Below, in pieces: positions 4,735 to 55,652 of a DNA stretch of 64,000 nt. Position numbers and translations under genes: made by a program. The notes under the pieces are model-generated. The model searched no databases and had not been told where the DNA came from. It saw only the letters and a list, made by a program, of their open reading frames with translations. Origin of the DNA: Natrinema sp. DC36 (GTDB lineage Archaea > Halobacteriota > Halobacteria > Halobacteriales > Natrialbaceae); NCBI RefSeq assembly GCF_020405225.1, contig NZ_CP084472.1, forward strand, positions 3,596,001 through 3,660,000, in the 5' to 3' direction. The first letter of the stretch is position 1; every line of letters starts with the position of its first letter.

Positions 4735-5658
4735 ATGGAACGCCGAACCTACTTGGTCACCGCTGGAATCGGCGCATCGTCCCTCCTCGCGGGCTGTCTG
4801 AGCGACGACCCGAGCGATACCGAGTCCGACAGCGCCGGGTCCGACGGCGACGACGAAACGGACCCCGACGGCGATGAGTCCGGAACCGAAAGCGAACCGG
4901 ACCCCGGCCCGGTCATCGAGACGTACCTCGAGGCGGCCCAGGCGGAAAACCCCGACGCGATGGCCGAAGTCGTCCACAGCGCGAGCCCGTTACAGGGCCT
5001 TCTCACCGATCCCGAGTGGGAGTTCGAATCGAGCGGCTCCGTCGACCTCGACGCCCTCGAGACCGAGGTCGTGACGGCCGACGGCTCCATTGCGGACGTC
5101 CGCGAGCTGGAGGGTGCCGAGTTCTGGTTCGCGGAGTCCGACCTCGAGGCCGAGATTGGCGACGAGGAGATCACGCTGGTCCGTGCCGAACTGGACGGCG
5201 AGGAATCGACCGGCGAGACCGGCGTCTACGCGCTCGTGACCGAGGACGACGAGTGGAAGGTTTTCTGGGTCGGCAGTGAGGACGAAATCTCGGAAAACCC
5301 CGAGGAAACCTTTGAGGCGGAGATCATCGACACGGACGACGACGTCGTCGAGCGGATCGAGTGGGACGTCGACGCGGTGGACGCCCCCGAGGGATCCGAC
5401 TTCGAAACCGGGGACTACGCCCGCGTCCACCTCACGGACTCGCCCGGCCTCGAGGCTGACCTGATCCGGACCGAATCGACCGTCGCCGGCGCGGAGTTCG
5501 AGTTCTACGGCGAGGACGAAGACGAGCCGTCGACGTCGTGGGCGGGAACCTGGGCGAACGTCCAGCTCGATCCGGCTGGCGATCAGATCGTCGTGACCGC
5601 CGTTCGCGGTGACACCGAGACGGTCGTCCATCGGGAACAGTACGAGCCGTCGGACTGA
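4735..5658 (+). CDS. Tat-type secreted lipoprotein, function unknown
   Basis: A 307-residue acidic protein with a twin-arginine-like start (MERRTYLVTAGIGASSLLAGC). The lipobox LAGC puts the lipidated Cys near residue 21, followed by an Asp/Ser/Glu-rich tether (to about residue 58). The mature part contains a segment resembling NTF2-like/SnoaL-type domains (VIETYLEAAQAENPDAMAEVVH) and a C-terminal immunoglobulin-like stretch (TGDYARVHLTDSPG), but neither assignment is firm. It is likely anchored to the outside of the membrane. The TATA element TTATCATAATA (4703-4713) is centred about 27 nt upstream, supporting the start. It ends just before the tRNA-Leu gene. Confidence 0.85.
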   Translation: MERRTYLVTAGIGASSLLAGCLSDDPSDTESDSAGSDGDDETDPDGDESGTESEPDPGPVIETYLEAAQAENPDAMAEVVHSASPLQGLLTDPEWEFESSGSVDLDALETEVVTADGSIADVRELEGAEFWFAESDLEAEIGDEEITLVRAELDGEESTGETGVYALVTEDDEWKVFWVGSEDEISENPEETFEAEIIDTDDDVVERIEWDVDAVDAPEGSDFETGDYARVHLTDSPGLEADLIRTESTVAGAEFEFYGEDEDEPSTSWAGTWANVQLDPAGDQIVVTAVRGDTETVVHREQYEPSD

Positions 5659-6687: not shown

Positions 6688-7638
6688 CTACGCCGGCACC
6701 TCTTCTTTCGGCTTCGGCAGGTCGTACGTGACGCCGGTCAGGTCTTCCGAGACGGCCCACAACCGACGGGCCGTCTCCTCGTCGTAGGACCGATCCGAGG
6801 AGGCCTGTCGCTCGGGTGTGCCACGCATGTTCTGGAAGCCGCCGGGGCCGTAGTACGCGCCGCCCTCGGCGTCGGGTGCGGTCGCAGCATAGAGCGTCGG
6901 GAGCGCACCCATCTCGGCCGACTGTGCGACCACCGTGTTCATCAGTTTCATCGCCGCCATTCGGAGCCGACTCCCGCTCTGCTCGGGCCCGCGGTACTGC
7001 AGTTGCGTATTCGCGTAGCCGGGATGCACTGCCATGCTCTGTGCGTTCATATCTGCGGTGAGGAACCGTCGCTCGAGTTCGTACGCGAAAAGCACGTTCG
7101 CCAGTTTCGACTGGGCGTAGGTGCTCCACTTGTCGTAGGACTCCTCGCCCTGGAGGTCGTCGAAGTCGATCTCGCCGCTCTCGTGAGCCCCGCTCGAGAC
7201 GGTGACGACCCGTGCGGGCTCCTCGCCGTCGGTCGCCAGGTTCTCGAGCACCAGGCCGGTAAGTGCGAAGTGACCGAGGTGGTTGACGCCGAACTGGGTC
7301 TCGAAGCCGTCCGCGGTCTCCGAGCGCGGGATCGCCATGACTCCCGCGTTGTTGATCAGCACGTCGATCGCCTCGTCTTCGAGCCCCGCCGCGAAGGACC
7401 GAACGGACTCGAGGTCACCCAGGTCGCACTCCTCGACGCGCAGGTCGGCGTCGGGAACGTCCTCGCGAACGTCGTCGGCCGCGTCCTCGCCGCGCTCGAC
7501 GCTCCGGCAGGCCATGATCACCGTCGCGCCGTTGCGCGCGAGTTCGCGAGTCGCCTCGAGGCCGATGCCGCTGTTCGCGCCCGTGATGGCGATCGTTCGG
7601 CCGTCCTGATCGGGAACGTCGTCGGCTGTCCAGCTCAT
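6688..7638 (-). CDS. short-chain dehydrogenase/reductase (retinol dehydrogenase / protochlorophyllide reductase-like)
   Basis: A 316-residue classical-type SDR with NAD(P)-binding TGANSGIG (near residue 20), NNAGV, a catalytic Ser in TVSSGAH, and YAQSKLAN holding the catalytic Tyr and Lys. The long insert between Ser and Tyr (EIDFDDLQGEESYDKWS) is typical of the retinol dehydrogenase/protochlorophyllide reductase-like branch. Start chosen at MSWTADDVPDQDGR (7636-7638), since upstream codons belong to an open frame overlapping the kinase antisense. It likely reduces or oxidises a hydrophobic carbonyl/alcohol; the substrate is unknown. Confidence 0.9.
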   Translation of the reverse strand: MSWTADDVPDQDGRTIAITGANSGIGLEATRELARNGATVIMACRSVERGEDAADDVREDVPDADLRVEECDLGDLESVRSFAAGLEDEAIDVLINNAGVMAIPRSETADGFETQFGVNHLGHFALTGLVLENLATDGEEPARVVTVSSGAHESGEIDFDDLQGEESYDKWSTYAQSKLANVLFAYELERRFLTADMNAQSMAVHPGYANTQLQYRGPEQSGSRLRMAAMKLMNTVVAQSAEMGALPTLYAATAPDAEGGAYYGPGGFQNMRGTPERQASSDRSYDEETARRLWAVSEDLTGVTYDLPKPKEEVPA

Positions 7639-7723
7639 AGGCGTTCTATACCGTCCGGGCCCTAAATGGGTGCGCCGTGGGTGATCCGGCAGGTGCTCGA
7701 GCGGGACGGACGAGACGGCGGTA

Positions 7724-10700
7724 CTACTCCCGCGCTTGCGAGGCGGACAGCGTAAACGAGAACGTCGCGCCTTCCCCGGGCTCGGAGTCGACCCAGATCT
7801 CGCCGCCGTGGCGTTCGACGATGCGTTCACTGAGCGCGAGCCCGATACCCGTCCCCTCGTACTCCTCGCGGCTGTGGAGGCGATCGAAGATGGTAAATAC
7901 CCGATCCTGGTTAGCCGGGTCGATGCCGATTCCCTCGTCGCGGACCGAGACCACCCACTCGTCGCCCCGCCGGTCGGCACCGACGTGGACCCGCGGCGAC
8001 TCGTCGCCGCTGTACGTGATCGCGTTACTCAGCAGGTTCTGGAGCACCTGTCGCAACTGGCTGGCGTCGCCCTCGACGCGGGGCAGCTCCTCGACGGTGA
8101 TCTCGGCACCGCTCTCCTCGAGCTGTATCTGGAGGTCCTCGCGGACGTCCTCGAACACCGCGTTCAGATCCGTCGACTCGAACGGATCGCCCTGCGTTTC
8201 GACCCGGGAGTACTCGAGCAGCCCGTCGATCATCTCGCGCATCCGGTCGGCCCCGTCGACGGCGTAGGCGAGGAACTCCCGGCCGTCCTCGTCGAAGGCG
8301 TCGTCGTAGCGCTTCTCGAGCAGCGTCAGGTAGCTCGTGACCATCCGGAGCGGTTCCTGCAGGTCGTGGGAGGCCGCGTACGCGAACTGCTCGAGTCGCT
8401 CGTTCGATTCCTCGAGCTTTCGCTGATACTCCCGGCGCTCCGTGACGTCCTGCACCACGACCATGCCCGCGAAGATCTCGTCCTCGCCGTTCCTGACGGG
8501 GAGCGTGTGGGCGTACAGGTGACGGTCGTACCGTTCGACTTCGAAGGAGTTCGTCTCTCCGTCGAGGGCCGCGTGAAAGTACTGCTCGATCTCGTCGACC
8601 AAGTGGTCCGGATGGAGCTCGTCTATGCTGCTCCCGACGCGGTCTTCCGTGGCAACGCCGATCTCATCGAGGAGTTGCCCGCCCACGGCCGTGTACGTGA
8701 GGTCCTCGTCGAACAGGCCGACCGCGCCTTCGGGGAAGTTCTCGACGAGGGTCCGGTAGCGGCGCTCGGACTCCTCGAGCCGCCGTTCCCGGGCCTTTCG
8801 ATCGTTGACGTCCCGGACGATGCCGACCCGGTGCCACCGACTGTCGTCTTCGGGCAGCATCGCGAAGGTCCCCTCGACTGGAAGCGTATCGCCGTCCGCC
8901 GTCCGAAGGTCGGCTTCGACGGAGGGCCACTCGACGTCCGTATCCGCGGTGGCGATTTCCAGTTCCCGGACCGTCTCGGCCACCGCGTCGTCGACGACCG
9001 CGGACGCGTCCGTGCCGACGAGTTCGTCGGGGGTGTAGCCGAGCATCTCGGCGTACGTGTCGTTGACCATGGTGAACCGTCCGTCCTCGTCGACGACGTA
9101 GACGCCGTCGTTGACGACCTCGACGATCGTTTCGTACCGCTCGAGGTCGTTCTCGCGCTCGACCTGTTCGGTCACGTCCTGGGCGAAACTCAGCCCGGCG
9201 AAGATGTCACCGTCGCCGTCGCGGAGCGGTGTCGCCCAGACGCGCCAGTTTCGGCCGCCGAACGCCGTTTCCGTGCTACCGGTTTCGCCGTCCTCGACGG
9301 CCGCCCGGAACAGCGGATCGAGGTCTGCGACCGCCTCCTCGGGGAACACATCGGGCATTCGGCTCCCTTCGAGTCGGTCCGCGGACGGGAGCACCTCGCC
9401 GAGTATGGTACCCTCGGTCAGCGTATACTCGAGATCGCGGTCGTAGACGCCGACGGCACCGTTCGGGAAGTGCTGGGCCAGCGCCCGGTAGCGGCGCTCG
9501 GACTCTTCGAGGCGGCGCTCGGACTCGCGGCGTTCGGTGATGTCCTGGGACATCCCCAGTGCGCCGAAGACCGCGCCGTCGTCGTCGCGAATCGGGACGA
9601 TCCGCGCGTCGTAACTGCGATCGTTCGACGTCAGTTCGAACGTACTGGCCTCCCCCTCGAGCGCGGCCTCATAGCGCGGGACGAGTTCGGTAGCCAACGC
9701 CGGCGGCAGCACCTCTTCGAGCGGTTTCCCCTCGAGCTCTTCGATCGTGGCATCGGCCGCCTCGAGCGGAGTACCGCCGACCGTCTGATAGCACAACTCC
9801 TCGTCGACGAGGGTGACGGCCCCGTTCGGGAAGTGTTCGACGAGCGTTCGGTATCGCTGCTCGGACTCCTCGAGCTCTCGTTCTCGCGTGCGTCGTTCGG
9901 TAACGTCGCGGAAATAGACGGAGAGACCGGTCGCCGACGGATAGGCGCGAACCTCGAACCACGCGTCGAGCGGGTCGGGGTAGTACTCCTCGAACGTGAC
10001 GGTCTCCTGTTCAGACATCGCCCGTTCGTATTCCGATTTGAACGCCCGTTCGCTGGCTTCGGGGAACGCCGCCCAGATGTTCGCGCCGACCAGCTCACGC
10101 CCCTCGGGGTTGATCAGTTCGTGTGCGCGCTCGTTGAAGTAGGTGAACCGCCACTCCTCGTCGAGCGCGAAGAAGGCGTCCGAGATCCGACCGAACAGCT
10201 CCTCGCGTTCGGCGTGTGCCCGCTCGTTCTCGACGGCCGAGGCGAGGACGTCCGCGATGCGTCCCACGAAATCGGCGTCGGATTCGGTGAACGCTCGCCG
10301 TTCGGTCGCGTACGTCTCGAGGATGCCCCACGGCTCGCCGCCCGAGCCGATCGGGACGCTGATACCGCTCACGGTGTCGAGATCGGTGAGCGACGCCGGG
10401 CCGCTCGTCCCCTCGTCCGCGCGCAGGTGGTCGACGACGATGGGCTCCTCGGCGGGGCTGGACTCCGCCGACCGCGAGTCTCGATTCAACACGACGGTCG
10501 CATTCCCGACGGCCCCCGCCGTGCAGCCGATGCCCGCTCTGCAGACGCCCTTCTTCCCGTCCGGTAAGCGCTCGAGGACGACACAGTACTCGGTATCTAA
10601 CGTCTCGGCGACGGCGGCCGTCGCATCGCGGCAGAGCCCATCGAAATCGGCCCCCGCCAGCGCCTGCTGGCTCAATTCGGTGATGACCTCTTGTCGGCGA

Positions 10701-43328: not shown

Positions 43329-44765
43329 TCACTCGGGATACGTGTCGCGCCACGGCCGCTGGCGCTCGAACGCGGCGCTTGCGGCGATCACGTCGTCGTC
43401 GGCGTGGCGTGGGCCCGCGATTTGCATCCCGACGGGGAGTCCGTCGATGACGCCGGCCGGGACCGAGGCCGCCGGCTGGCCGGTGAGGTTGAACGGCTGC
43501 GTGAGCACCCAGCCGCGGTACGGCTCGATCTCGACGCCGTCGATCTCCGTCGGCTCCTCACCGTGGGGGAACGGCGTCGTCCCGCAGGTCGCCGTCGCGA
43601 GGAGATCGTACTCGGCGAACAGGTCTCCCAGTCCGTCGAGGACATGGGTTCGAACGACGTCAGCGCGCTTGTACTCCCGCGTGGTCGGCTCCTCGGCGTC
43701 CACGACGAGATCGACGAGATACGGCCGAAGGCGATCGCGGTCCTCGCCGAGCGGATCGAACCCCTCGTCCTCGAGGTTCTCGAGCAGCGATCCCCACCGT
43801 ACGGTCGCCATCGTGTAGTAGGCGTCCAGAATCTCCTCGTTGTCGTGTCCCAGGTCGGGATCGACCGCGTCGACGGTCGCGCCGGCGCGCTCGAGCGCCG
43901 AGACGGCGTCCTCGAGTACGTCGCGCACGGCGGGCTCGACGGGATAGATGCCCATACCCGGGCTGTACGCGATTTGCACGTCGTCGATGGGGCGATCGAC
44001 GGCGGCGCGGTACTCGCCCCCCTTCGGGATCGAGAACGGATCGCGCGGGTGGGTTCCGGCCATCACGTCCAGCGAGAGCGCCGCGTCCTCGACCGTTCGG
44101 GCCAGCGGCCCGTTCGTGGAGAAGGGGGTGTGACTGGCGAACGCGTTCGGCCGGCTGACGTTCGGGATCACGCCTTGTGTGGGTTTCAGTCCGTACACGC
44201 CACAGAAGCTCGCCGGCACGCGAACCGAGCCGCCGGCGTCGGAACCGGGTGCGAGCGGCACGAGCCGGTCGCCCAGCGCCGCCCCGGCCCCGCCGGAGGA
44301 CCCGCCCGAGACGCGATCGGGATCGAACGGCGTCCCCGTCGGCCCGGTGACGCGGTTATCGGTCGTGACGCCGAGCCCGAACTCGGGCGTGTTCGTCTTC
44401 CCGACAACGATCGCTCCCGCGTCCTTCAGCCGGGCGACGAACGGCGAGTCCGACTCGGCGACCCGGTCCTCGAAGAGCAACGACCCCGAGGTCGTTCGGA
44501 CTCCCTCGACGTCGTCGAGATCCTTGATCGCGACGGGGACGCCGTGCAGCGGCCCGAGCGGCTCGCCCTCGTCGATCGCGCGGTCGGCCTCGGCGGCCAT
44601 CTCGCGGGCCAGATCGTCCGTTACCGTCACGAACGCGTTCGTCCGATCGTTTCGGTCGTGGATGCGCTCGAGGGTGGCGTCGACGACCTCGGTCGGTGAG
44701 CACTCCCCGTCTCGGATCGCTCTCGCGATCCCCGCGGCGGTCGTGCGCGTGAGTGGTGCGACCAT
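43329..44765 (-). CDS. amidase (amidase signature family)
   Basis: A 478-residue amidase signature enzyme. The Ser-cisSer-Lys triad is visible: Lys in VPVAIKDLDDVEG, the Gly-rich RVSGGSSGGAGAALGDR, and PGSDAGGSVRVPASFCG with the nucleophilic Ser. The FYGLKPTQG-type stretch is GVYGLKPTQG. It hydrolyses an amide to acid and ammonia; GatA is unlikely because it sits in a catabolic operon without gatB/gatC. The start (MVAPLTRTTAAGIARAI) lies 5 bp after the stop of the acyl-CoA dehydrogenase, so the two are in one transcript. Confidence 0.93.
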   Translation of the reverse strand: MVAPLTRTTAAGIARAIRDGECSPTEVVDATLERIHDRNDRTNAFVTVTDDLAREMAAEADRAIDEGEPLGPLHGVPVAIKDLDDVEGVRTTSGSLLFEDRVAESDSPFVARLKDAGAIVVGKTNTPEFGLGVTTDNRVTGPTGTPFDPDRVSGGSSGGAGAALGDRLVPLAPGSDAGGSVRVPASFCGVYGLKPTQGVIPNVSRPNAFASHTPFSTNGPLARTVEDAALSLDVMAGTHPRDPFSIPKGGEYRAAVDRPIDDVQIAYSPGMGIYPVEPAVRDVLEDAVSALERAGATVDAVDPDLGHDNEEILDAYYTMATVRWGSLLENLEDEGFDPLGEDRDRLRPYLVDLVVDAEEPTTREYKRADVVRTHVLDGLGDLFAEYDLLATATCGTTPFPHGEEPTEIDGVEIEPYRGWVLTQPFNLTGQPAASVPAGVIDGLPVGMQIAGPRHADDDVIAASAAFERQRPWRDTYPE

Positions 44766-44770
44766 CCGGA

Positions 44771-45991
44771 TCAGTCCGTGATCCCCATCGATTTCGCGAT
44801 CGTGTTGAGCTGAATTTCGTCGGTCCCCTCGACGATCCGCAGGATGCGCGCCTGGTGGACCAGATCCATGTAGGGGTTCTCCTCGGCCAACCCGTTGGCC
44901 CCGTTGACCTGGACGGCCGCGTCGGCGACCTCCCAGAGGACGTTCGTCGCGAACCACTTCAGCACCGACGAGTCCATGATCGTCCGCTCGTCTTCGGCCA
45001 TCTTCCAGGCGAGTTTCAGCCCCGCGGCGTCGGCCGCGTAGGTCTTCGCCCGCCCCTTCGCGAGCTTCGCGGAGACCTGCTGGAAGTTCCCGATCGGCTC
45101 GCCGAAGGCCTCGCGCTCGGTGACGTACTCGCCGGCCTCCTCGAGCAGGTACTCGCTGTACCCCACGGCCTCGGCACCCAACTCGAGCCGTCCGAGCGAG
45201 AGAAAGTCCATCGCGGCGTAGAACGCCTCGTCGACCGCGCCGAGCACGCGGTCCTCCGGGACGCGCACGCCGTCCAGAACGATCTCGGCCTGTGACCCCT
45301 CCGCGCCGACGGCGTTGTTGTACGACCCGATCTCGTACTCGTCGCGCTCGACGATGAAGCACGTGATGCCGCCGTAGCGGCCGGCTTCCTCCTGGGGCGT
45401 CGTCCGCGCGAAGAGCTGGATAAAGTCGGCGTAGGGCGCGTTGGTGATCCACTGCTTGCGGCCGTTGATGAGCCACTCGTCTCCGTCTTTCTCCGCTGTT
45501 GTCCCCATATTGGGCGAGTCCGACCCCACGCCGGGCTCGGTCTGGCCGAACGCCGTCGACTTCTCGCCGCGGACCACGGGCTCGAGGTATTTCTCCCGCT
45601 GGTCGCCCTCGGCCTGCAACAGCAGCGGCTTCGGCCCCTCGGGGCCGGCGAGGACGTAGCGCTCGAGGCCGCCGCCGTGGCTGGCGACGTGTTTCTTCGC
45701 TCGATACCACGTCACCGGAGAGATACCGTCGCCGCCCGCGTCCTCAGGTAGGTTCATCGCGTAGAAGCCCGCCTCGGCCGACTTGCGTCGGATCTCCTCG
45801 CGGGCCTCGAGCAGTTCGTCGGTCCAGCGGCCGTTCTCGTGGTGTCCCTTGCGGGGGTTGGTGTAGACGTCTCCCAGCTCTTCGACGATCGGGTCGACCT
45901 CTCGTTCGATGAAGTCGTCGATACTGTCGAGGATCAGTTCGGTCTCGTCGTCGGTGTCGAAACTCACGCCGCCTGTGGTGTTAGCTACCAT
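44771..45991 (-). CDS. acyl-CoA dehydrogenase
   Basis: A 406-residue enzyme with AFGQTEPGVGSDSPNMG, KQWITNAPYADFIQLF, VQVNGANGLAEENPYMD, and the catalytic Glu retained in RIVEGTDEIQLNTIAKS. It is therefore another subfamily than the tandem pair at 38-41 kb. The N-terminal helical part starts at DDETELILDSIDDFIEREV. It lies between the amidase (5 bp) and an acyl-CoA ligase (30 bp) on the same strand; the operon would activate an acid, desaturate it and hydrolyse an amide, suggesting growth on an amide-bearing or amide-derived acid. Confidence 0.95.
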   Translation of the reverse strand: MVANTTGGVSFDTDDETELILDSIDDFIEREVDPIVEELGDVYTNPRKGHHENGRWTDELLEAREEIRRKSAEAGFYAMNLPEDAGGDGISPVTWYRAKKHVASHGGGLERYVLAGPEGPKPLLLQAEGDQREKYLEPVVRGEKSTAFGQTEPGVGSDSPNMGTTAEKDGDEWLINGRKQWITNAPYADFIQLFARTTPQEEAGRYGGITCFIVERDEYEIGSYNNAVGAEGSQAEIVLDGVRVPEDRVLGAVDEAFYAAMDFLSLGRLELGAEAVGYSEYLLEEAGEYVTEREAFGEPIGNFQQVSAKLAKGRAKTYAADAAGLKLAWKMAEDERTIMDSSVLKWFATNVLWEVADAAVQVNGANGLAEENPYMDLVHQARILRIVEGTDEIQLNTIAKSMGITD

Positions 45992-46021: not shown

Positions 46022-47659
<1,638 letters not shown>

Positions 47660-47736
47660 CATAGCCGTCGTAGCTATTCTGTCCAGTACCTTATGATTTG
47701 GGACGAGTACGCCGTCGTGACAGACGAACGGAGCCG

Positions 47737-48900
47737 TCAGCGGATTATCCCGGACTCGCGGAGGTCGGCTCGCTCGCTCTCGTCGTACCCCACTGACGCG
47801 AGTAGGGCGTCGGTGTGCGCTCCGTGGCCCGGAACCGACTCGTCGTGGCTGTCGGGTACGTTCGACCCCATCGCCGGAAAGCCGACCCGCGGCGGCGCGT
47901 CCGCCGGCCGCTCGATCAGTCCGCGCGCCTCGAGCTGGGGGTGCTCGAGGGCTTCGGCCGGCGTACACACCGGCCCGACCATCGTCTCGTCGGAAAGCGT
48001 CTCGAGCCACTCGTCCCGTGAGCGGCTCGCGAACAGCGACTCGAGTTCCTCGCGGACCGCCTCGAGTTCGGCCGGGTCGTCGGTGCCGTGGGCGTCGATC
48101 AGCTCCTCCCGTCCGGTCTCCTCGCAAAAGGCCTCCCAAAACTTCGGCTCGAGCGCCGCGAGCGTCACGTAGCGCCCGTCGGCCGCCTCGTACACGTCGT
48201 ACCATGGGTACCGTCCGGTGAGCGCGGTCTCGCCGGGCCGGGGATCGTCGCCGGTGAGCGCCTCGTGGGAAATCGCCTGCGAGAACGAGGCGACCACGTC
48301 GGTCATGGCCACGTCGATATACTCGCCGCCGTTGCCGAGTTCGCGAGACAGGAGTCCGCCGACGATGCTGAAGGCCGCGAACAGCCCGCCACCGAGGTCG
48401 CCGATCTGGTAGCCGGGGATCTGCGGTGCCATCGTCTCGTCCTCGCGAGTCATCTCGAGCAGCCCCGCGAGCCCGACGTAGTTGAGGTCGTGGCCCGCGC
48501 GCTCGGCGTACGGCCCGGTTTGACCGTAGCCCGAGAGCGAGCAATAGACGAGGTCCTCGTTGTACTCGAGCAGCGTTTCGTAGTCGACCCCGAGTCGCTC
48601 GGCGACGCCCGGTCGGAACTGCTCGAAGACGACGTCGGCGTCCTCGACGAGCCGGTAGAAGGCCGTCCGGCCCGCGTCCGATTTCAGGTCGACGGCGATG
48701 CTACGCTTGCCACGATTGACGCCGTCGAACAGCGCGCCGACGCCGCGGTCCGTCGTCGGCGGCGTGTACCGCGCGTAGTCTCCCGCGTCGGTGTCCTCGA
48801 CTTTGATCACGTCAGCGCCCGCGTCGGCGAGCAGTTGCGTCGCGTACGGGCCCGGAAGCAGGCGGGACAGGTCGAGTACTCGGACGGAATCGAGCTGCAT
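47737..48900 (-). CDS. CaiB/BaiF-family CoA-transferase
   Basis: A 387-residue family III CoA-transferase. The N-terminus LDLSRLLPGPYATQLLADAGADVIKVED and the catalytic Asp in AGHDLNYVGLAGLL are clear, as is GYQIGDLGGG. Length and the single domain fit either 2-methylacyl-CoA racemase (AMACR) or acyl-CoA:carboxylate CoA-transferases. In a region with branched acyl-CoA metabolism a racemase that prepares 2-methylacyl-CoA for the dehydrogenases is plausible. It precedes the ligase by 75 bp on the same strand, so it may be the first gene of that operon. Confidence 0.93.
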   Translation of the reverse strand: MQLDSVRVLDLSRLLPGPYATQLLADAGADVIKVEDTDAGDYARYTPPTTDRGVGALFDGVNRGKRSIAVDLKSDAGRTAFYRLVEDADVVFEQFRPGVAERLGVDYETLLEYNEDLVYCSLSGYGQTGPYAERAGHDLNYVGLAGLLEMTREDETMAPQIPGYQIGDLGGGLFAAFSIVGGLLSRELGNGGEYIDVAMTDVVASFSQAISHEALTGDDPRPGETALTGRYPWYDVYEAADGRYVTLAALEPKFWEAFCEETGREELIDAHGTDDPAELEAVREELESLFASRSRDEWLETLSDETMVGPVCTPAEALEHPQLEARGLIERPADAPPRVGFPAMGSNVPDSHDESVPGHGAHTDALLASVGYDESERADLRESGIIR

Positions 48901-48993: not shown

Positions 48994-49926
48994 TCAGTCG
49001 TCGCCCTCGAGTTGCACTAACTCGTCGACGTCCGGGATATCGGCCGCGGCGTCCGTGATCTGTTGCATCCGGTCGGTGTGCTTGTCGACCGCGTAGGCGG
49101 CCAGTCTCCCGTCCTCGAGGCCGACGCGTTCCTCGGGATCGTCCGGCTGGAACCGCTCGTCCTCGGTGATCCCCTGTACGAGCGGAAGGAGTTCCTCGAC
49201 CGTCTCCTCGATGATCGCGGGGTCGACGCCCTCGGCGATGAGCTTCTTGAGCTGGTTCATCCCGAAACCGACGTGGCGCCCCTCGTCGCTGCGGATCTTC
49301 GTAAAGCCCTGGACGAGCCCCGGCAGGTGGGGGAGCTCGTCGAACTCGCCGCCGTAGGAGGTCTGCATCCCGTAGTACCCCGTCTGCGCGAGGATCCCCT
49401 CGACCGTGAGGTGGTAGTGGCAGTACGCTCTGGCTCGGTTTTCGGGCGTGTCTTCCTCGAGCAGCCGGAACTGCGCCTTCCGGTTGCGGTCGAACAGTTC
49501 GATGTACGGGTCGTTGAACCACCGCTCGTGGCGGGGATCGGACCGTTCCCAGCCCAGTTCGTCCTCGACCGTCCAGACGACCTCCCGCCAGTAGCGGTCG
49601 AAGAAGTCCGCGTGCTTGGCCTCCTCGTACAGCTGGGTCGTCAGGAACAGCTGATCGTCGATATTGTCGAGTACCGCCCCCAGCGGCGCGAGATCTTCGG
49701 TAACCGCGTCCTCCCCCGCCCCGAACTTCGCGATGCCGTTGAGGGTGCCGTACCACGACTCCCGGTCGTACGACTTCGAGGCTTCGATGAACGCAAGGAG
49801 GTTTTCGACGTCTTCCTCGAGGTCGATCTCGCCGGGGTCCCAGTGTCGCTCGACCGCGTTTCGATAGTAGCGGTTCGATCTGGACTCCCGGTCCATCATC
49901 GCCGTCGGCGTGTACTCTGTTGCCAT
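48994..49926 (-). CDS. R2-like ligand-binding oxidase (R2lox), Mn/Fe ferritin-like
   Basis: A 310-residue helical di-metal carboxylate protein. Ligands fit R2lox: Glu72, Glu102 with His105 (YEEAKHADFF), Glu176 (HLTVEGILAQ) and Glu215 with His218 (RSDEGRHVGFG). The Val-Tyr ether cross-link pair that defines R2lox is also present: Val75 three residues after Glu72 (GEDAVTEDLAPL) and Tyr171 five before Glu176. In bacterial R2lox these hold a Mn/Fe site with a bound fatty acid and an oxidase reaction. Start at MATEYTPTAM; TATTAAA (49949-49955) is centred 26 nt upstream. It lies in an acyl-CoA gene region, which fits a lipid-like ligand. Confidence 0.92.
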   Translation of the reverse strand: MATEYTPTAMMDRESRSNRYYRNAVERHWDPGEIDLEEDVENLLAFIEASKSYDRESWYGTLNGIAKFGAGEDAVTEDLAPLGAVLDNIDDQLFLTTQLYEEAKHADFFDRYWREVVWTVEDELGWERSDPRHERWFNDPYIELFDRNRKAQFRLLEEDTPENRARAYCHYHLTVEGILAQTGYYGMQTSYGGEFDELPHLPGLVQGFTKIRSDEGRHVGFGMNQLKKLIAEGVDPAIIEETVEELLPLVQGITEDERFQPDDPEERVGLEDGRLAAYAVDKHTDRMQQITDAAADIPDVDELVQLEGDD

Positions 49927-49948: not shown

Positions 49949-49955
49949 TATTAAA
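49949..49955 (-). promoter_or_regulatory. TATA box of the R2lox gene
   Basis: TATTAAA (TTTAATA on the gene strand) centred 26 nt before the ATG at 49926, the leaderless spacing. Confidence 0.6.
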
Positions 49956-50051: not shown

Positions 50052-51488
50052 TCAGCCGCCGCTCTCGTCGGCGTTCGCTCGCGGGGTGTCCCCGCTCGCG
50101 TCACCCGAGGCGCGTTGCGCCTCGCTCTCCTCGACGCGCTCGTGGACGTCGAGCGTGGTCATCGCTCGGTAGGTTTCGATTCGGTCGGTCTTGGCGAGTC
50201 GATATCGATAATAGACGTACGCGACGCCGAACCAGCCGATGAGGACCACGCCCACGACGGGTCGCTGGAGGAGCGTGACCAGCCAGAACGCGCCGGTTGC
50301 GACTCCCCCGCCCAGCACCGCGAGGAGGAGCCCGCGGTATCGGCGGAGTCGAAACGGGGCGTTGGCGTAGTGTGCCGGGAACTCCCGCGGCAGATTCCAG
50401 AGGCCGATCGCACAGAAGAAGTACGCCGTGAGACTGGCCAGGCCGATGAACACGGAAAGACCGACAATTTCGTCCGCGAGGGGGACGAGCACGAACGGCG
50501 GGACGCCGAGCACGGCGATCGCGTAATGGGGCGTGTCGAACCGGGGGTGAATCCGGGAGAGCGACGCCGGGAGAATGCCGTCACGGCTCGCGCGCATGAG
50601 CGTTCGGGAGAAGACGAGCAGCGTCGTATTCACCGTGGTGACGACCGCGAAGATCGCGCCGGCGGCGACGACGTACTCGCCCCACCAGGGGAGATATCTC
50701 GAGGCGGCGAGCGCGAGATCGGCTTCGTTCCCCAGTTCCGCGTACGGAACGACTCCGACGAGGACGGCGATCAACCCCACGTAAAACAGTACGACGATAC
50801 CGATACCGAGCCCCAGTACGAGCGGGATCGTCCGTCCGGGGTCCTCTATCTCCTCCCCGAGTTCGATCAGTAACCCGAATCCGAGGAACGGGTAGAACAG
50901 TGCCACGATTGCGAGCCCGAACCCGCCGTAATCCGGGAAAAACGGGGTGTAATTGGCGGTATCGATCGCGGCCGCTCCGGGGACGATAAACGTCAGGAGT
51001 GCGGCGACGAGACCGACGAAAAAGACGATCTGCACCTGCGCGACGACTCTGAGCCCGACGACGTTGACGAGCAAGACGAATCCGAGCAGGACGTAGATGA
51101 GCCACATCGACGGCACGTCGAAGAAGATTCGGGTGTACTCGGCGAAGCCGGTCGCCGTAATGAGCAGCGACGCCCACGCGACGAGGGGGATCGTGAACGG
51201 GACCAGGAACCCCCAGTAGGGGGCCGTGAGCCGAGAAATGTAGACGTACAGGCCGCCGGCGACCGGCATCGCCGAGCCGAGCAAGGCGTTGTACAGGACG
51301 ACGAATCCGGCCGGGATCGCTGCGAGCATGATCGCCAGGACGAGCGCCGGCCCCGCGGTTCCCGCCAGCGGCCCCGGCAAGACGAATATCGGGACCGAAA
51401 TCGCGTTTCCGACCAGGAGCGCCAGCACCCCGAGGATGCCGATGCTCGAGGAAAGCGTCTCCCCGTCGTCGTCGGTAATCGTGCTCAT
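50052..51488 (-). CDS. APC-superfamily amino acid/amine permease
   Basis: A 478-residue transporter with about 12 membrane helices. Helix 1 has the unwound GNAISVPIFVLPGPLAGTAG substrate-binding segment, and TM6 has PFLGFGLLIELGEEIEDPGRTIP. The C-terminal tail (DVHERVEESEAQRASGDASGD) is soluble and acidic. It would import amino acids or amines. The small membrane protein before it overlaps its start by 4 bp, so the two are co-translated. The 3' part of a related permease gene occurs as a remnant at 37727-37950. Confidence 0.93.
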   Translation of the reverse strand: MSTITDDDGETLSSSIGILGVLALLVGNAISVPIFVLPGPLAGTAGPALVLAIMLAAIPAGFVVLYNALLGSAMPVAGGLYVYISRLTAPYWGFLVPFTIPLVAWASLLITATGFAEYTRIFFDVPSMWLIYVLLGFVLLVNVVGLRVVAQVQIVFFVGLVAALLTFIVPGAAAIDTANYTPFFPDYGGFGLAIVALFYPFLGFGLLIELGEEIEDPGRTIPLVLGLGIGIVVLFYVGLIAVLVGVVPYAELGNEADLALAASRYLPWWGEYVVAAGAIFAVVTTVNTTLLVFSRTLMRASRDGILPASLSRIHPRFDTPHYAIAVLGVPPFVLVPLADEIVGLSVFIGLASLTAYFFCAIGLWNLPREFPAHYANAPFRLRRYRGLLLAVLGGGVATGAFWLVTLLQRPVVGVVLIGWFGVAYVYYRYRLAKTDRIETYRAMTTLDVHERVEESEAQRASGDASGDTPRANADESGG

Positions 51489-51736
51489 TCCGTCGCCGAC
51501 CGGTCCCTGCGGCGGCGACGAATCGCGTAGTCGCGGAACCGTCGTCCGAGGACGAACCCGACGACACCGCCGAGGAAGGGTGTGACGACGAGCAGCGCCT
51601 GAACCGTCAGTACGGGGAGTACGATCCCGATGCCGAGACCGACCACGAGCCCGCCCTCGGGATACTGCGCCGCGGCTACCTCGCGCTCGATGTCGTCCAT
51701 CTCCGTCGGATCATCGCGGTACTGTCCGATGGCCAT
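51485..51736 (-). CDS. small membrane protein, partner of APC permease
   Basis: An 83-residue protein with two hydrophobic helices (LVVGLGIGIVLPVLTVQALLVV and FLGGVVGFVLGRRF) followed by a basic tail (RRRRRDRS). Start taken at MAIGQYRDDPTEMDD (51734-51736); the longer open frame upstream would add a segment without similar character. Its stop overlaps the permease start (ATGA), suggesting an accessory or stabilising subunit. No known family recognised. Confidence 0.75.
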   Translation of the reverse strand: MAIGQYRDDPTEMDDIEREVAAAQYPEGGLVVGLGIGIVLPVLTVQALLVVTPFLGGVVGFVLGRRFRDYAIRRRRRDRSATE

Positions 51737-51900
51737 GCCATGACCTACCACACTGCGGCTAAAGTATTTTAGGGAGGCTGATACCAGGTGCGAGAGTCCG
51801 TGATCCTCCCGATCGCGGTCGGTACGCAACGGGCCCGCGATCGAACCGGCGTCTACGAGGGTTGATAAGAACTAAGTCGATACCCGTGAAGGTTGCTGCC

Positions 51901-52638
51901 ATGGCACAAAAGAGTGCTGCCGTCGTCGGAGGCGGCATCATGGGCGCTGGCATCGCACAGGTACTGGCACGGAACGGCTACGACGTGGCCGTCCGCGAGA
52001 TCAACGAGGAGCTGGCCGACGAGGCTCGCGAACGCGTAATCTCGGGCAACTACGGACTCGAGGACGCCGTCGAAGGCGGCTATCTCTCCGAGGACGAGAT
52101 GGACGAGGTTCTCGAGCGGATGACGTTCACGACGGACCTCGACGCGGCGACCGACGGGACCGACTTCACGATCGAGGCGGTCACGGAAAATCTGGCGATC
52201 AAGGGGCAGGTCTTCCGCGATCTGGACGAGGTCACGGACGAGCAGCCGCTGTACTCGAATACGAGCGGCTTCGCCGTCACGTCGATCGCCAACGCCGTCT
52301 CCGACCCCTCGCGGGTCGCGGTGACGCACTTTTTCAATCCCGTCGCGGTCATGGACATGGTCGAGATCGTGCAAGCGCCCGAAACCGACGAGGCCGTCGT
52401 CGAGCGCGCCGAGGAACTGGTCGACGAACTCGGGAAAACGCGCGTCACCATCGACGACGATCCCGGCTCCTACGGCTTCCTCGCCAACCGCTGTCACGCG
52501 GCCATGCGCGAGGAGGCCAAGAAGATCGTCGACGAGGGCATCGCCACGAAGGATCAGGTCGACAAGGCCCTCGAGGACGGATACAACCTCCCCGTCGGCC
52601 CGTTCTCGCTGGCCGGCCTCGGCGAGGAGTGGGACTGA
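51901..52638 (+). CDS. 3-hydroxyacyl-CoA dehydrogenase, C-terminally short
   Basis: A 245-residue enzyme with the Rossmann motif GGGIMGAGIAQVLARNGYDV, the NTSG turn (SNTSGFAVTS), catalytic His in VTHFFNPVAVMDMVEIV, and the start of the helical C-terminal domain (GFLANRCHAAMREEAKKI). Usual family members have about 285 residues; here the chain ends at DGYNLPVGPFSLAGLGEEWD, just where the second half of the dimerisation domain should begin (compare the gene at 60891). It ends 59 bp before a repeat element, so truncation by that insertion is possible. Activity is uncertain. GATAAG (51865-51870) is a possible TATA element. Confidence 0.88.
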   Translation: MAQKSAAVVGGGIMGAGIAQVLARNGYDVAVREINEELADEARERVISGNYGLEDAVEGGYLSEDEMDEVLERMTFTTDLDAATDGTDFTIEAVTENLAIKGQVFRDLDEVTDEQPLYSNTSGFAVTSIANAVSDPSRVAVTHFFNPVAVMDMVEIVQAPETDEAVVERAEELVDELGKTRVTIDDDPGSYGFLANRCHAAMREEAKKIVDEGIATKDQVDKALEDGYNLPVGPFSLAGLGEEWD

Positions 52639-53142: not shown

Positions 53143-53940
53143 TTACTTCCCTTCGAACTCGGGGTCGCGGTCCTCGGCGAACGCCGCCGCACCCTCCGCG
53201 TGATCCTCCGTCTTGAGCAGTTCCTGGAAGAGCGAGCTGTCGTACGCTAGCCCCTCCTCGAGCCCGGAGTGAACGGCCATATCCGCGGACTTCTTGATCC
53301 CCTGGATCGCCAGCGGTGCCTGTCCGGCGAGGTCGGTCACGAACTCGTCGACCGCCTCGTCGAACTCGTCGGCGGCGTGGACGTGGGTGACGATCCCCTC
53401 CTCGCCCGCTCGCTCCGCCGAGATGTGTTTCCCGGTCATCGCGAGCTCCTTCGCGACGGCGGGCCCGGCCAGTTTCTCGACGTACTGAACGCCGCCGGCA
53501 CCGGGGAGAATGCCGAGATTCACTTCGGGGAAGCCGAACGTGCTCCCCTCGCTGGCCAGTCGGAAGTCACACGCCAGCGCGGTCTCGAGGCCGCCGCCCA
53601 GACAGTAGCCGTCAATCTTCGCGATGACCGGGGTCGGGAAGTCCCTGATGACGTCGTAGTGCGAGCGGGCCGAGGTGCCGCCGGCCGACTCGTCGGAGAA
53701 GCCGCCGATGTCCGCCCCCGCACAGAAAGCCTTCTCGCCGGCACCCTCGAGCACCACGGCGCGCAGCGCGACGCCGTCGGCGTCCTCGTTCCGTTCCTCG
53801 AGGGACTCGAGCCCCGCGATGATGTCATCTCTGAGCTGGCCGTTCAGCGCGTTCAACGCGTCCGGCCGGTTCATCGTGATCGTGCCGACGCCGCGCTCGT
53901 CGTCGTACTCCACCAGGACAGTGTCGAATGAGTGGTCCAT
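53143..53940 (-). CDS. enoyl-CoA hydratase/isomerase (crotonase family)
   Basis: A 265-residue crotonase-fold enzyme. Oxyanion-hole segments KAFCAGADIGGF and GGGLETALACDF are intact, and both catalytic Glu positions are kept (in GLETALACD and FGFPEVNLGILPGAGG), so hydration of 2-enoyl-CoA is expected. Start MDHSFDTVLVEYDD is the usual one and CTTTTTGAC (about 28 nt upstream) could be a TATA element. It converges with the short 3-hydroxyacyl-CoA dehydrogenase; the two could supply successive steps. Confidence 0.95.
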   Translation of the reverse strand: MDHSFDTVLVEYDDERGVGTITMNRPDALNALNGQLRDDIIAGLESLEERNEDADGVALRAVVLEGAGEKAFCAGADIGGFSDESAGGTSARSHYDVIRDFPTPVIAKIDGYCLGGGLETALACDFRLASEGSTFGFPEVNLGILPGAGGVQYVEKLAGPAVAKELAMTGKHISAERAGEEGIVTHVHAADEFDEAVDEFVTDLAGQAPLAIQGIKKSADMAVHSGLEEGLAYDSSLFQELLKTEDHAEGAAAFAEDRDPEFEGK

Positions 53941-54569: not shown

Positions 54570-55652
54570 TCAGAAGGCCCGGAGGTCTTCGAGCACGGCT
54601 TCCGCGCTGCCGTCGGCAATGACCTCGCGCGCCCGCTCGAGTCCGTCCTCGAGGCTGTCGACGTCCTGACGGGCGTGCATCCGGAACGCGCCGTTGAGGG
54701 CGATGGCGTCGGCGAAGTGTCCCTCGCGGTCACCAGTGAGGACGGCCTCGGTGATCGACGCGGAGTCGGCCGTCACGTCGTCGACCTCGAGGTCCTCGGC
54801 CTCCATCGCCATGCCGTAGTTCGCGGTTTCGATCTCGTAATCCTCGAAGGAATCCGCACCGTCGTCGCCGTCTCGATCCCACTCCGCGACCTTCGTATAT
54901 CCGGGCCGGATATCGTCGTATCCCTCCATCCCCTGGAAGAAGATGGCCCGCGAGTACCCGAGTCGCTCGCTCTCGGTGATCGTGTCGGTCAGCTTCTTCG
55001 CGAACGCGAGGTGGTAGAACGAGCCCAAGTGGACGTCGGCGTTCGCCGGATTCGCGATCGTTTCGATCGTGTTGACGAACGTGCGGACGCCCATCTGATC
55101 GCGCCGGTCGTAGAGGTCATGGATTCCGGGGTTGAAATTCGGCTGGTAGTAGAAGCCGAAGCGGGTCTCGTCGACCATGTCCGCGCTTTCGTCGGGCTCG
55201 AGTTCGGTTCGGACGCCGAGCTCGTCGAGGACGTGTTTGTACGCCGTCGCCTTCTGCGTCGGGACCCGATCGCCGGAGTGGACGACGATGGGGGTGCCCG
55301 CGGCCGCGGCGACGACGCCGGCTCCGACGCCGAGGACGGCGGAGCTGTGCTTGCCGTCGTAGTTCGCCCCGCAGTCGACCGGATCGCACTCCGGCTCGGC
55401 GGTGACGACCGACTCCTCGCGCATCACGTCGGTGTAGGCCGCCAGCTCCGTCGGGATGTTTCGCTTCCAGCGGTTTGCCAGCCAGAACGCGCCGAGCGTC
55501 GTTTCGTCCGGTTCGCCCGCCAGAATACGCTGGAACGCCTCTCGAGCCTGTTCGCGGGTCATGTCGTCGGCCGACTTCGGGCCGGAGCCGACGACCTCGG
55601 TCATGAGCCGCGTGAGCGGCCAGTCGCCGAATTCCTGGGTTGCGTGCGCCAT
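54570..55652 (-). CDS. TrpD2-like glycosyltransferase-family-3 protein
   Basis: A 360-residue relative of anthranilate phosphoribosyltransferase. The helical N-terminal domain (TREQAREAFQRILAGEPDE) and the alpha/beta domain are present, but the PRPP site GTGGDG is replaced by CGANYDGKHSS, and the region continues VLGVGAGVVAAAAGTPIVVHSG. This is the pattern of TrpD2/YbiB proteins, which have lost the transferase site and bind nucleic acid in bacteria. Hence anthranilate transfer is unlikely. Start chosen at MAHATQEFGDWPLT. It is divergent from the siroheme decarboxylase gene. Confidence 0.85.
   Translation of the reverse strand: MAHATQEFGDWPLTRLMTEVVGSGPKSADDMTREQAREAFQRILAGEPDETTLGAFWLANRWKRNIPTELAAYTDVMREESVVTAEPECDPVDCGANYDGKHSSAVLGVGAGVVAAAAGTPIVVHSGDRVPTQKATAYKHVLDELGVRTELEPDESADMVDETRFGFYYQPNFNPGIHDLYDRRDQMGVRTFVNTIETIANPANADVHLGSFYHLAFAKKLTDTITESERLGYSRAIFFQGMEGYDDIRPGYTKVAEWDRDGDDGADSFEDYEIETANYGMAMEAEDLEVDDVTADSASITEAVLTGDREGHFADAIALNGAFRMHARQDVDSLEDGLERAREVIADGSAEAVLEDLRAF

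Follow-up and report, generated by a model that had tools for sequence, protein, structure and literature searches.

An R2lox-type oxidase gene of Natrinema sp. DC36 and its acyl-CoA gene neighbourhood

The gene, its promoter and its neighbours

The window analysed here is a stretch of 64,000 nucleotides from the haloarchaeon Natrinema sp. DC36 (contig NZ_CP084472.1, positions 3,596,001 to 3,660,000), and all coordinates are those of the window unless a locus is named. The gene of interest is an open reading frame on the reverse strand (48994-49926) that encodes 310 amino acids plus a stop codon, with its ATG at 49926-49924 and a protein that opens with MATEYTPTAMMD. A second in-frame ATG lies 9 bases upstream (49935); we chose 49926 as the start because close orthologues begin MATEY, MSTEY or MASEY. 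The gene has a GC3 of 0.88 and its protein is acidic, like those of other genes in the window, and named Natrinema species show 88-93% identity. Judged by its sequence, the product is almost certainly a haloarchaeal R2-like ligand-binding oxidase (R2lox). It is a member of an established family, the R2lox manganese/iron oxidases, and is no new kind of enzyme, since a haloarchaeal R2lox, that of Natronomonas pharaonis, has already been published (PMC3824934), and a bacterial R2lox has been reported as alkane-degrading.

A TATA-like box, TTTAATA (49949..49955, reverse strand), is located at -29 of the ATG. The same heptamer, which has a background frequency in these loci of 3.4e-5 per base and strand, occurs at -29/-30 in 18 of 24 orthologues, each of the other six has a near variant there, and the box is kept across genera whose upstream and flanking genes differ. 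This supports the proposal of the first-pass annotation that the gene has a clean promoter of its own, and the position of the box fits an archaeal TATA element that would drive a near-leaderless mRNA.

Downstream, and on the same strand, are a family III CoA-transferase (47737..48900; PF02515, 332.8 bits), an AMP-binding acyl-CoA ligase (46022..47662, start approximate; PF00501, 256 bits), an acyl-CoA dehydrogenase (44771..45991; PF00441/PF02770/PF02771) and an amidase (43329..44765; PF01425, 359 bits), so that the transferase, ligase and dehydrogenase originally described as adjoining the gene are indeed all present. The CoA-transferase is the next gene downstream and is found beside R2lox in 10 of 10 named Natrinema species; it was missed by our gene caller, a simple codon-bias heuristic, and was shown by Pfam and the list of open reading frames. 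On the upstream side are a 3-hydroxyacyl-CoA dehydrogenase (51901..52638, forward strand; PF02737 on ORF 51862-52638) and an enoyl-CoA hydratase (53143..53940, reverse strand; PF00378). The window is a beta-oxidation island, in which 6 of the 19 acyl-CoA dehydrogenases of the genome are encoded within about 53 kb. Inside this fatty-acid island there is also an anthranilate phosphoribosyltransferase-like gene (54570-55652; PF00591/PF02885) that is syntenic in Natrinema.

The association of R2lox with acyl-CoA genes is real in Natrinema but is not general. All 10 Natrinema species have the acyl-CoA context, with an average of 4.7 of 6 acyl-CoA families within 4.5 kb of R2lox. One or more acyl-CoA genes lie near 7 of 16 other close orthologues, compared with 7 of 40 control segments (evenly spaced, 10 kb each; Fisher p=0.047, not corrected for ancestry), and for R2lox of other clades the count is 10 of 41 against the same 7 of 40 (Fisher p=0.31, likewise not corrected for ancestry). 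We therefore rejected an acyl-CoA neighbourhood as a general rule for R2lox, as it holds only in Natrinema and some others. Outside Natrinema, the R2lox gene of Halostagnicola larsenii is surrounded by genes for a ligase, a hydratase (ECH), a hydroxyacyl dehydrogenase (HCDH), an amidase, a thiolase and an ACAD, and two Halomarina plasmids have AMP-ligases near R2lox, one of them also with a hydratase (ECH), MaoC and a thiolase. The earlier suggestion of a lipid-like substrate is thus only partly and weakly supported by the neighbours, since the context is constant in Natrinema but absent around 9 of the 16 other close orthologues.

The next gene upstream encodes an APC-superfamily permease (50052..51488, reverse strand; PF13520, 114 bits), which also adjoins the R2lox gene of several genera as well as that of Halomarina. 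It is paired with an 83-amino acid putative membrane protein (51485..51736, reverse strand), a 56-59% identical copy of which lies beside R2lox and the permease in Halomarina. Together, the permease and the 83-amino acid protein recur next to R2lox in two haloarchaeal families and two R2lox subclades, with a different gene order (50052-51736 in the window; 6995-8709 of locus L131; 3273-4909 of locus L110). The APC permease next to the gene hints at a compound resembling an amino acid or amine, and a purely lipid substrate does not account for its recurrence. R2lox might, on this evidence, oxidise a compound imported by the permease (an amino acid, an amine or a branched or aromatic acid), the product of which would be degraded by the CoA-transferase, ligase and acyl-CoA dehydrogenase. 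Such a role would suit the fact that most Natrinema, Salinadaptatus and three loci of other Natrialbaceae genera (L059, L073 and L077) have the permease next to R2lox, usually with its partner, and that Halomarina and L110 have it, rearranged, next to an R2lox of a different subclade. However, Natrialba, H. larsenii and several Natrinema have no adjacent permease, and in the R2lox pocket that has been studied to date the occupant is a long-chain fatty acid (PMC4118035); we consider this role unlikely.

Diagnostic residues, fold and the case against ribonucleotide reductase

Residue numbers in the query are counted from the Met at 49926, and the reference is R2loxI of Geobacillus kaustophilus (GkR2loxI; PDB 4hr0). 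In the alignment, E72, E102, H105, E176, E215 and H218 correspond to the six metal ligands of 4hr0, the first ligand being Glu and not Asp. On the reverse strand, the codon of Glu72 (GkR2loxI E69) is at 49711..49713, those of E102-A103-K104-H105, which include the ligands E102 and H105 and the R2lox-typical K104, at 49612..49623, those of E176 to Y184, with the ligand E176 and the pocket residues Ala180 (Gk A171) and Tyr184 (Gk Y175) (PMC4118035; PMC3824934), at 49375..49401, and those of E215-G216-R217-H218, with the ligands E215 and H218 and the R2lox-typical Arg217, at 49273..49284. The ether bond of GkR2loxI joins V72 and Y162 (PMC6399176); these align with Val75 (49702..49704, reverse strand) and Tyr171 (49414..49416, reverse strand) of the query, and the corresponding bond is predicted.

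Conservation was assessed in an alignment of 109 rows, representing 87 distinct proteins, nearly all haloarchaeal and many closely related; four rows are cut at the N-terminus by our own gene calls, leaving 105 that reach G71, E72 and V75. All three are invariant in those 105 rows, and E102, H105, Y171, E176, E215, R217 and H218 are invariant in all 109. The first-pass annotation had placed the same six ligands and had matched Val75 and Tyr171 to the Val-Tyr ether pair of bacterial R2lox, and the full alignment upholds both assignments, with the pair kept in every row that reaches it. In addition, six residues (Gly, Pro, Lys, Ala, Tyr and Arg) were exclusive to R2lox in a published alignment (PMC3824934), and the query has all of them, as G71, P81, K104, A180, Y184 and R217. 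The position of the R2 radical Tyr is occupied by Phe109 in the query and by F or L in 109 of 109 rows.

The query is only about 22-28% identical to any characterised R2lox. The residue correspondence is beyond chance, given that a phmmer search of the query against the PDB returned R2lox entries first (best 4hr0, at 2e-25) and a 17-row profile matched 7qbp at 4e-42. Five NCBIfam R2lox models match the query, at up to 138.9 bits, compared with 19.4 bits for the best model of the ribonucleotide reductase (RNR) beta subunit, so that the HMM search proposed as a check came out in favour of R2lox by about 120 bits. The score of 138.9 bits is below the curated cut-off of NF006200, 194 bits, which is an annotation threshold and not a biochemical definition. 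The genome encodes four R2-like proteins, and the other three also fall below it; since all four keep the six ligands, the Val and the Tyr, the NCBIfam R2lox cut-offs appear to be too strict for the haloarchaeal clade.

An AlphaFold2 model was built from 27 aligned sequences (pLDDT 76, pTM 0.76). When it was compared with the PDB by Foldseek, ranks 1-30 were all R2lox, and 27 R2lox entries among the matches listed by VIA-align had Z-scores of 23.4-26.1, against 21.5 for the best R2. The modelled fold is thus that of R2lox rather than R2.

The orthologues are annotated by RefSeq as 'ribonucleoside-diphosphate reductase', which would make the query the small subunit of an RNR, a class Ic-like R2. 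Homology to PF00268 agrees with this name, at 25.4 bits under a cut-off of 33.6, and so is weak. The only RNR large subunit in the genome with a PF02867 match is a class II NrdJ (TIGR02504, 726 bits; cut-off 400), and no class I large subunit, NrdA or NrdE, was found there, so that none of the four R2-like proteins has a class I partner. Furthermore, the last 25 residues of the query, as in 100 of the 109 rows, contain no Tyr that could serve radical transfer, and the pocket-opening A180 replaces F197 of R2c (PMC4118035). On these grounds, together with the HMM scores and the fold, we rejected the R2 assignment, whose probability we put close to nil. A score under the curated 194 bits would explain the RefSeq label. 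Other names carried by haloarchaeal R2lox in RefSeq and plasmid records are 'ribonucleotide-diphosphate reductase subunit beta' and 'hypothetical protein', and 11 plasmid-record matches (H1 to H11) bear names of this sort although their residues mark them as R2lox. Genomes that, like this one, have only a class II RNR provide a clean background, since a phenotype of R2lox could not be mistaken there for an effect on DNA-precursor synthesis.

Paralogues and related clusters in haloarchaea

Haloarchaeal genomes have multiple R2lox copies, four here and up to six in others. A match is present in 98 of 117 Natrialbaceae genomes and in 150 of 292 Halobacteria genomes, where the weaker single matches (around 1e-8 to 1e-11) could be genuine R2 proteins. 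The second paralogue of the query genome (locus L066, 8393-9292) is 58% identical to the query, the third (locus L067, 6795-7928) has Phe in place of Tyr184, and the fourth is at 8093-9037 of locus L068. In a maximum-likelihood tree, haloarchaeal R2lox, leaving aside paralogues of the third and fourth type, form one clade (95/98) to which none of the crystallised R2lox (the Mt, Se, Sa and Gk structures) belongs; our literature search found no measured reaction for this clade. The fourth paralogue groups with the plasmid-borne GkR2loxII, both on very long branches, and the third-paralogue group is also on a long branch, with four of its five rows truncated at the N-terminus by our gene calls; we do not trust either placement for these reasons.

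At L067 (6170-7928), the third paralogue is followed on the same strand by a 107-amino acid protein of no assigned family and a 2Fe-2S ferredoxin (PF00111), and a ferredoxin adjoins R2lox in several other genomes (L096, L103, L104 and L105). There are also flanking copies of a 242-amino acid, weakly SCP2-like protein, and the arrangement resembles that of a multicomponent oxygenase.

A related subclade of R2lox (44-53% identical to the query, and annotated as hypothetical protein or RNR beta) heads or adjoins a conserved FAS/PKS-like cluster comprising a zinc-ADH-like reductase, acyl carrier protein, ketosynthase, holo-ACP synthase, malonyltransferase and FabG. Its hosts are Haloferax mediterranei, Natronorubrum bangense, Haloterrigena turkmenica and Natrinema strains, and the loci concerned are L127 (8980-14602, on plasmid pHME505 of H. 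mediterranei), L128 (7965-13615), L129 (3609-11021) and, from about position 5000, L090 and L091. On a plasmid of Natrinema sp. SYSU A 869 (L130, 6974-7860), the R2lox of the cluster is split into two annotated open reading frames, followed by genes for a dehydrogenase, ACP, ketosynthase, holo-ACP synthase and FabG. Our literature search found no paper on a haloarchaeal ACP/ketosynthase cluster with R2lox, and for the function of R2lox this cluster is, in our view, more promising than the window.

Haloarchaeal R2lox might be a separate, much-duplicated branch in which one scaffold serves several lipid-related jobs: an oxidation whose products enter beta-oxidation in Natrinema, the modification of chains by an oxidase in the ACP/ketosynthase/malonyltransferase/FabG cluster, and a ferredoxin-coupled form in the third paralogue. 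We hold this wider view to be rather improbable; if it is true, the class of compounds on which R2lox natively acts would come to light in haloarchaea. Little is firmly established about the reaction that R2lox performs in nature, and haloarchaea, including H. mediterranei, have many copies in clear metabolic settings, most of them misnamed.

Proposed reaction and comparison with known enzymes

GkR2loxI assembles a Mn/Fe or Fe/Fe cofactor, activates O2, forms the Val-Tyr ether and has a bound fatty acid (PMC6399176; PMC4118035). By residue identity with R2lox structures, the four-helix core of the query would bind Mn/Fe (or Fe/Fe) through E72, E102, H105, E176, E215 and H218, and at the first contact with O2 the high-valent cofactor would make the V75-Y171 ether bond. 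The small residues G71 and A180 would leave a tunnel that gives a long hydrophobic substrate access to the metals, and Y184 would line the pocket. The mature enzyme would most likely, by analogy, then hydroxylate a long-chain, alkane- or acyl-like substrate in a two-electron oxidation. In Natrinema, the product of this step would be activated to a CoA ester by the CoA-transferase and AMP-ligase and passed to beta-oxidation by the acyl-CoA dehydrogenase, hydratase, 3-hydroxyacyl-CoA dehydrogenase and thiolase encoded around R2lox. We give this account as a whole, from maturation to beta-oxidation, an even chance of being correct, and for a long-chain aliphatic as the substrate that feeds beta-oxidation, we are tentative and put the chance at not quite even.

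The statement in the first-pass annotation that the physiological reaction of R2lox is unknown has been overtaken by a 2024 report that GkR2loxI degrades C10-C22 alkanes in crude lysate (PMC10867098). This claim is itself weak, because of the use of crude lysate and because the E202A/H205A double mutant of the metal site differed by only 11-21 percentage points (PMC10867098). No gene of the AlkB/fatty-acid desaturase family (PF00487) was found in the query genome, which therefore lacks an alkane hydroxylase of the AlkB kind. Bacterial R2lox genes are located beside ADH/ALDH genes and, in Rhodococcus, also beside genes for ferredoxin and FAD reductase; the query gene has no adjacent ADH/ALDH or ferredoxin, which counts against the proposed reaction, as do the low identity to characterised R2lox and the separation of the haloarchaeal clade from them. 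On the Rhodococcus plasmid pRB11 (L070, 2312-10409), R2lox is in line with an NDMA-dependent alcohol dehydrogenase, an FAD-dependent oxidoreductase and a ferredoxin, with an aldehyde dehydrogenase and an SCP2 protein nearby, an arrangement that suggests a ferredoxin-fed hydroxylase.

The substrate may instead be an endogenous lipid (a fatty acid, isoprenoid chain or quinone tail) and not a compound used for growth, with R2lox acting as a desaturase or hydroxylase. Desaturation by R2lox has been proposed from modelling (PMC4118035), a related R2lox clade is part of the ACP/KS/MAT/FabG cluster of other haloarchaea, and the promoter is kept while the catabolic neighbours change; the clade of the query, however, sits with catabolic and not synthetic genes in Natrinema, and we think that this substrate is improbable. 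It is also conceivable that the protein has no catalytic turnover at all, and that it performs its O2-dependent cross-linking once to act as an oxidant sink or lipid carrier. Formation of the cross-link is stoichiometric (PMC6399176; PMC10401708), and our literature search brought up no purified R2lox shown to turn over a defined substrate. Set against this are the pocket residues, which are strictly conserved also outside the cross-link, and the alkane loss reported with GkR2loxI (PMC10867098), and we judge a protein of this kind very unlikely.

Among haloarchaeal relatives, the R2lox of N. pharaonis and of Halorientalis hydrocarbonoclasticus, whose gene is hexadecane-induced according to Kumar 2020 as cited in PMC10867098, share with the query a haloarchaeal host and a possible aliphatic oxidation, and may or may not belong to its subclade. 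The class Ic R2 of Chlamydia trachomatis (1syy, 4d8f) has the same fold and metal ligands, as well as Phe at the position of the radical Tyr. It differs in its lower similarity (Z about 20-21, 13-15% identity) and in its need for a class I large subunit, which was not found in the query genome. R2lox I and II of Sulfolobus acidocaldarius (6qrz, 7qbk) are likewise archaeal and have the ligands, the Val-Tyr pair and the fold, but group with the bacterial structures and not with the haloarchaeal clade. The R2lox of Mycobacterium tuberculosis (3ee4) and Saccharopolyspora erythraea (7qbp) also share the ligands, the cross-link pair and the fold (Z 24.9 and 26.1, respectively), whereas their identity to the query is 22-25% in the structural alignment. 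R2lox homologue I of G. kaustophilus (GK2771; 4hr0) is about 28% identical to the query and lies outside the haloarchaeal clade in the tree, and it has ADH/ALDH genes nearby (PMC10867098) that are not found next to the query gene. It nevertheless has the same six ligands, Val-Tyr pair and G/P/K/A/Y/R signature, its fold superimposes on that of the query model with a Z-score of 25.2 (rmsd 2.9, 265 residues aligned), and both genes have neighbours from fatty-acid catabolism.
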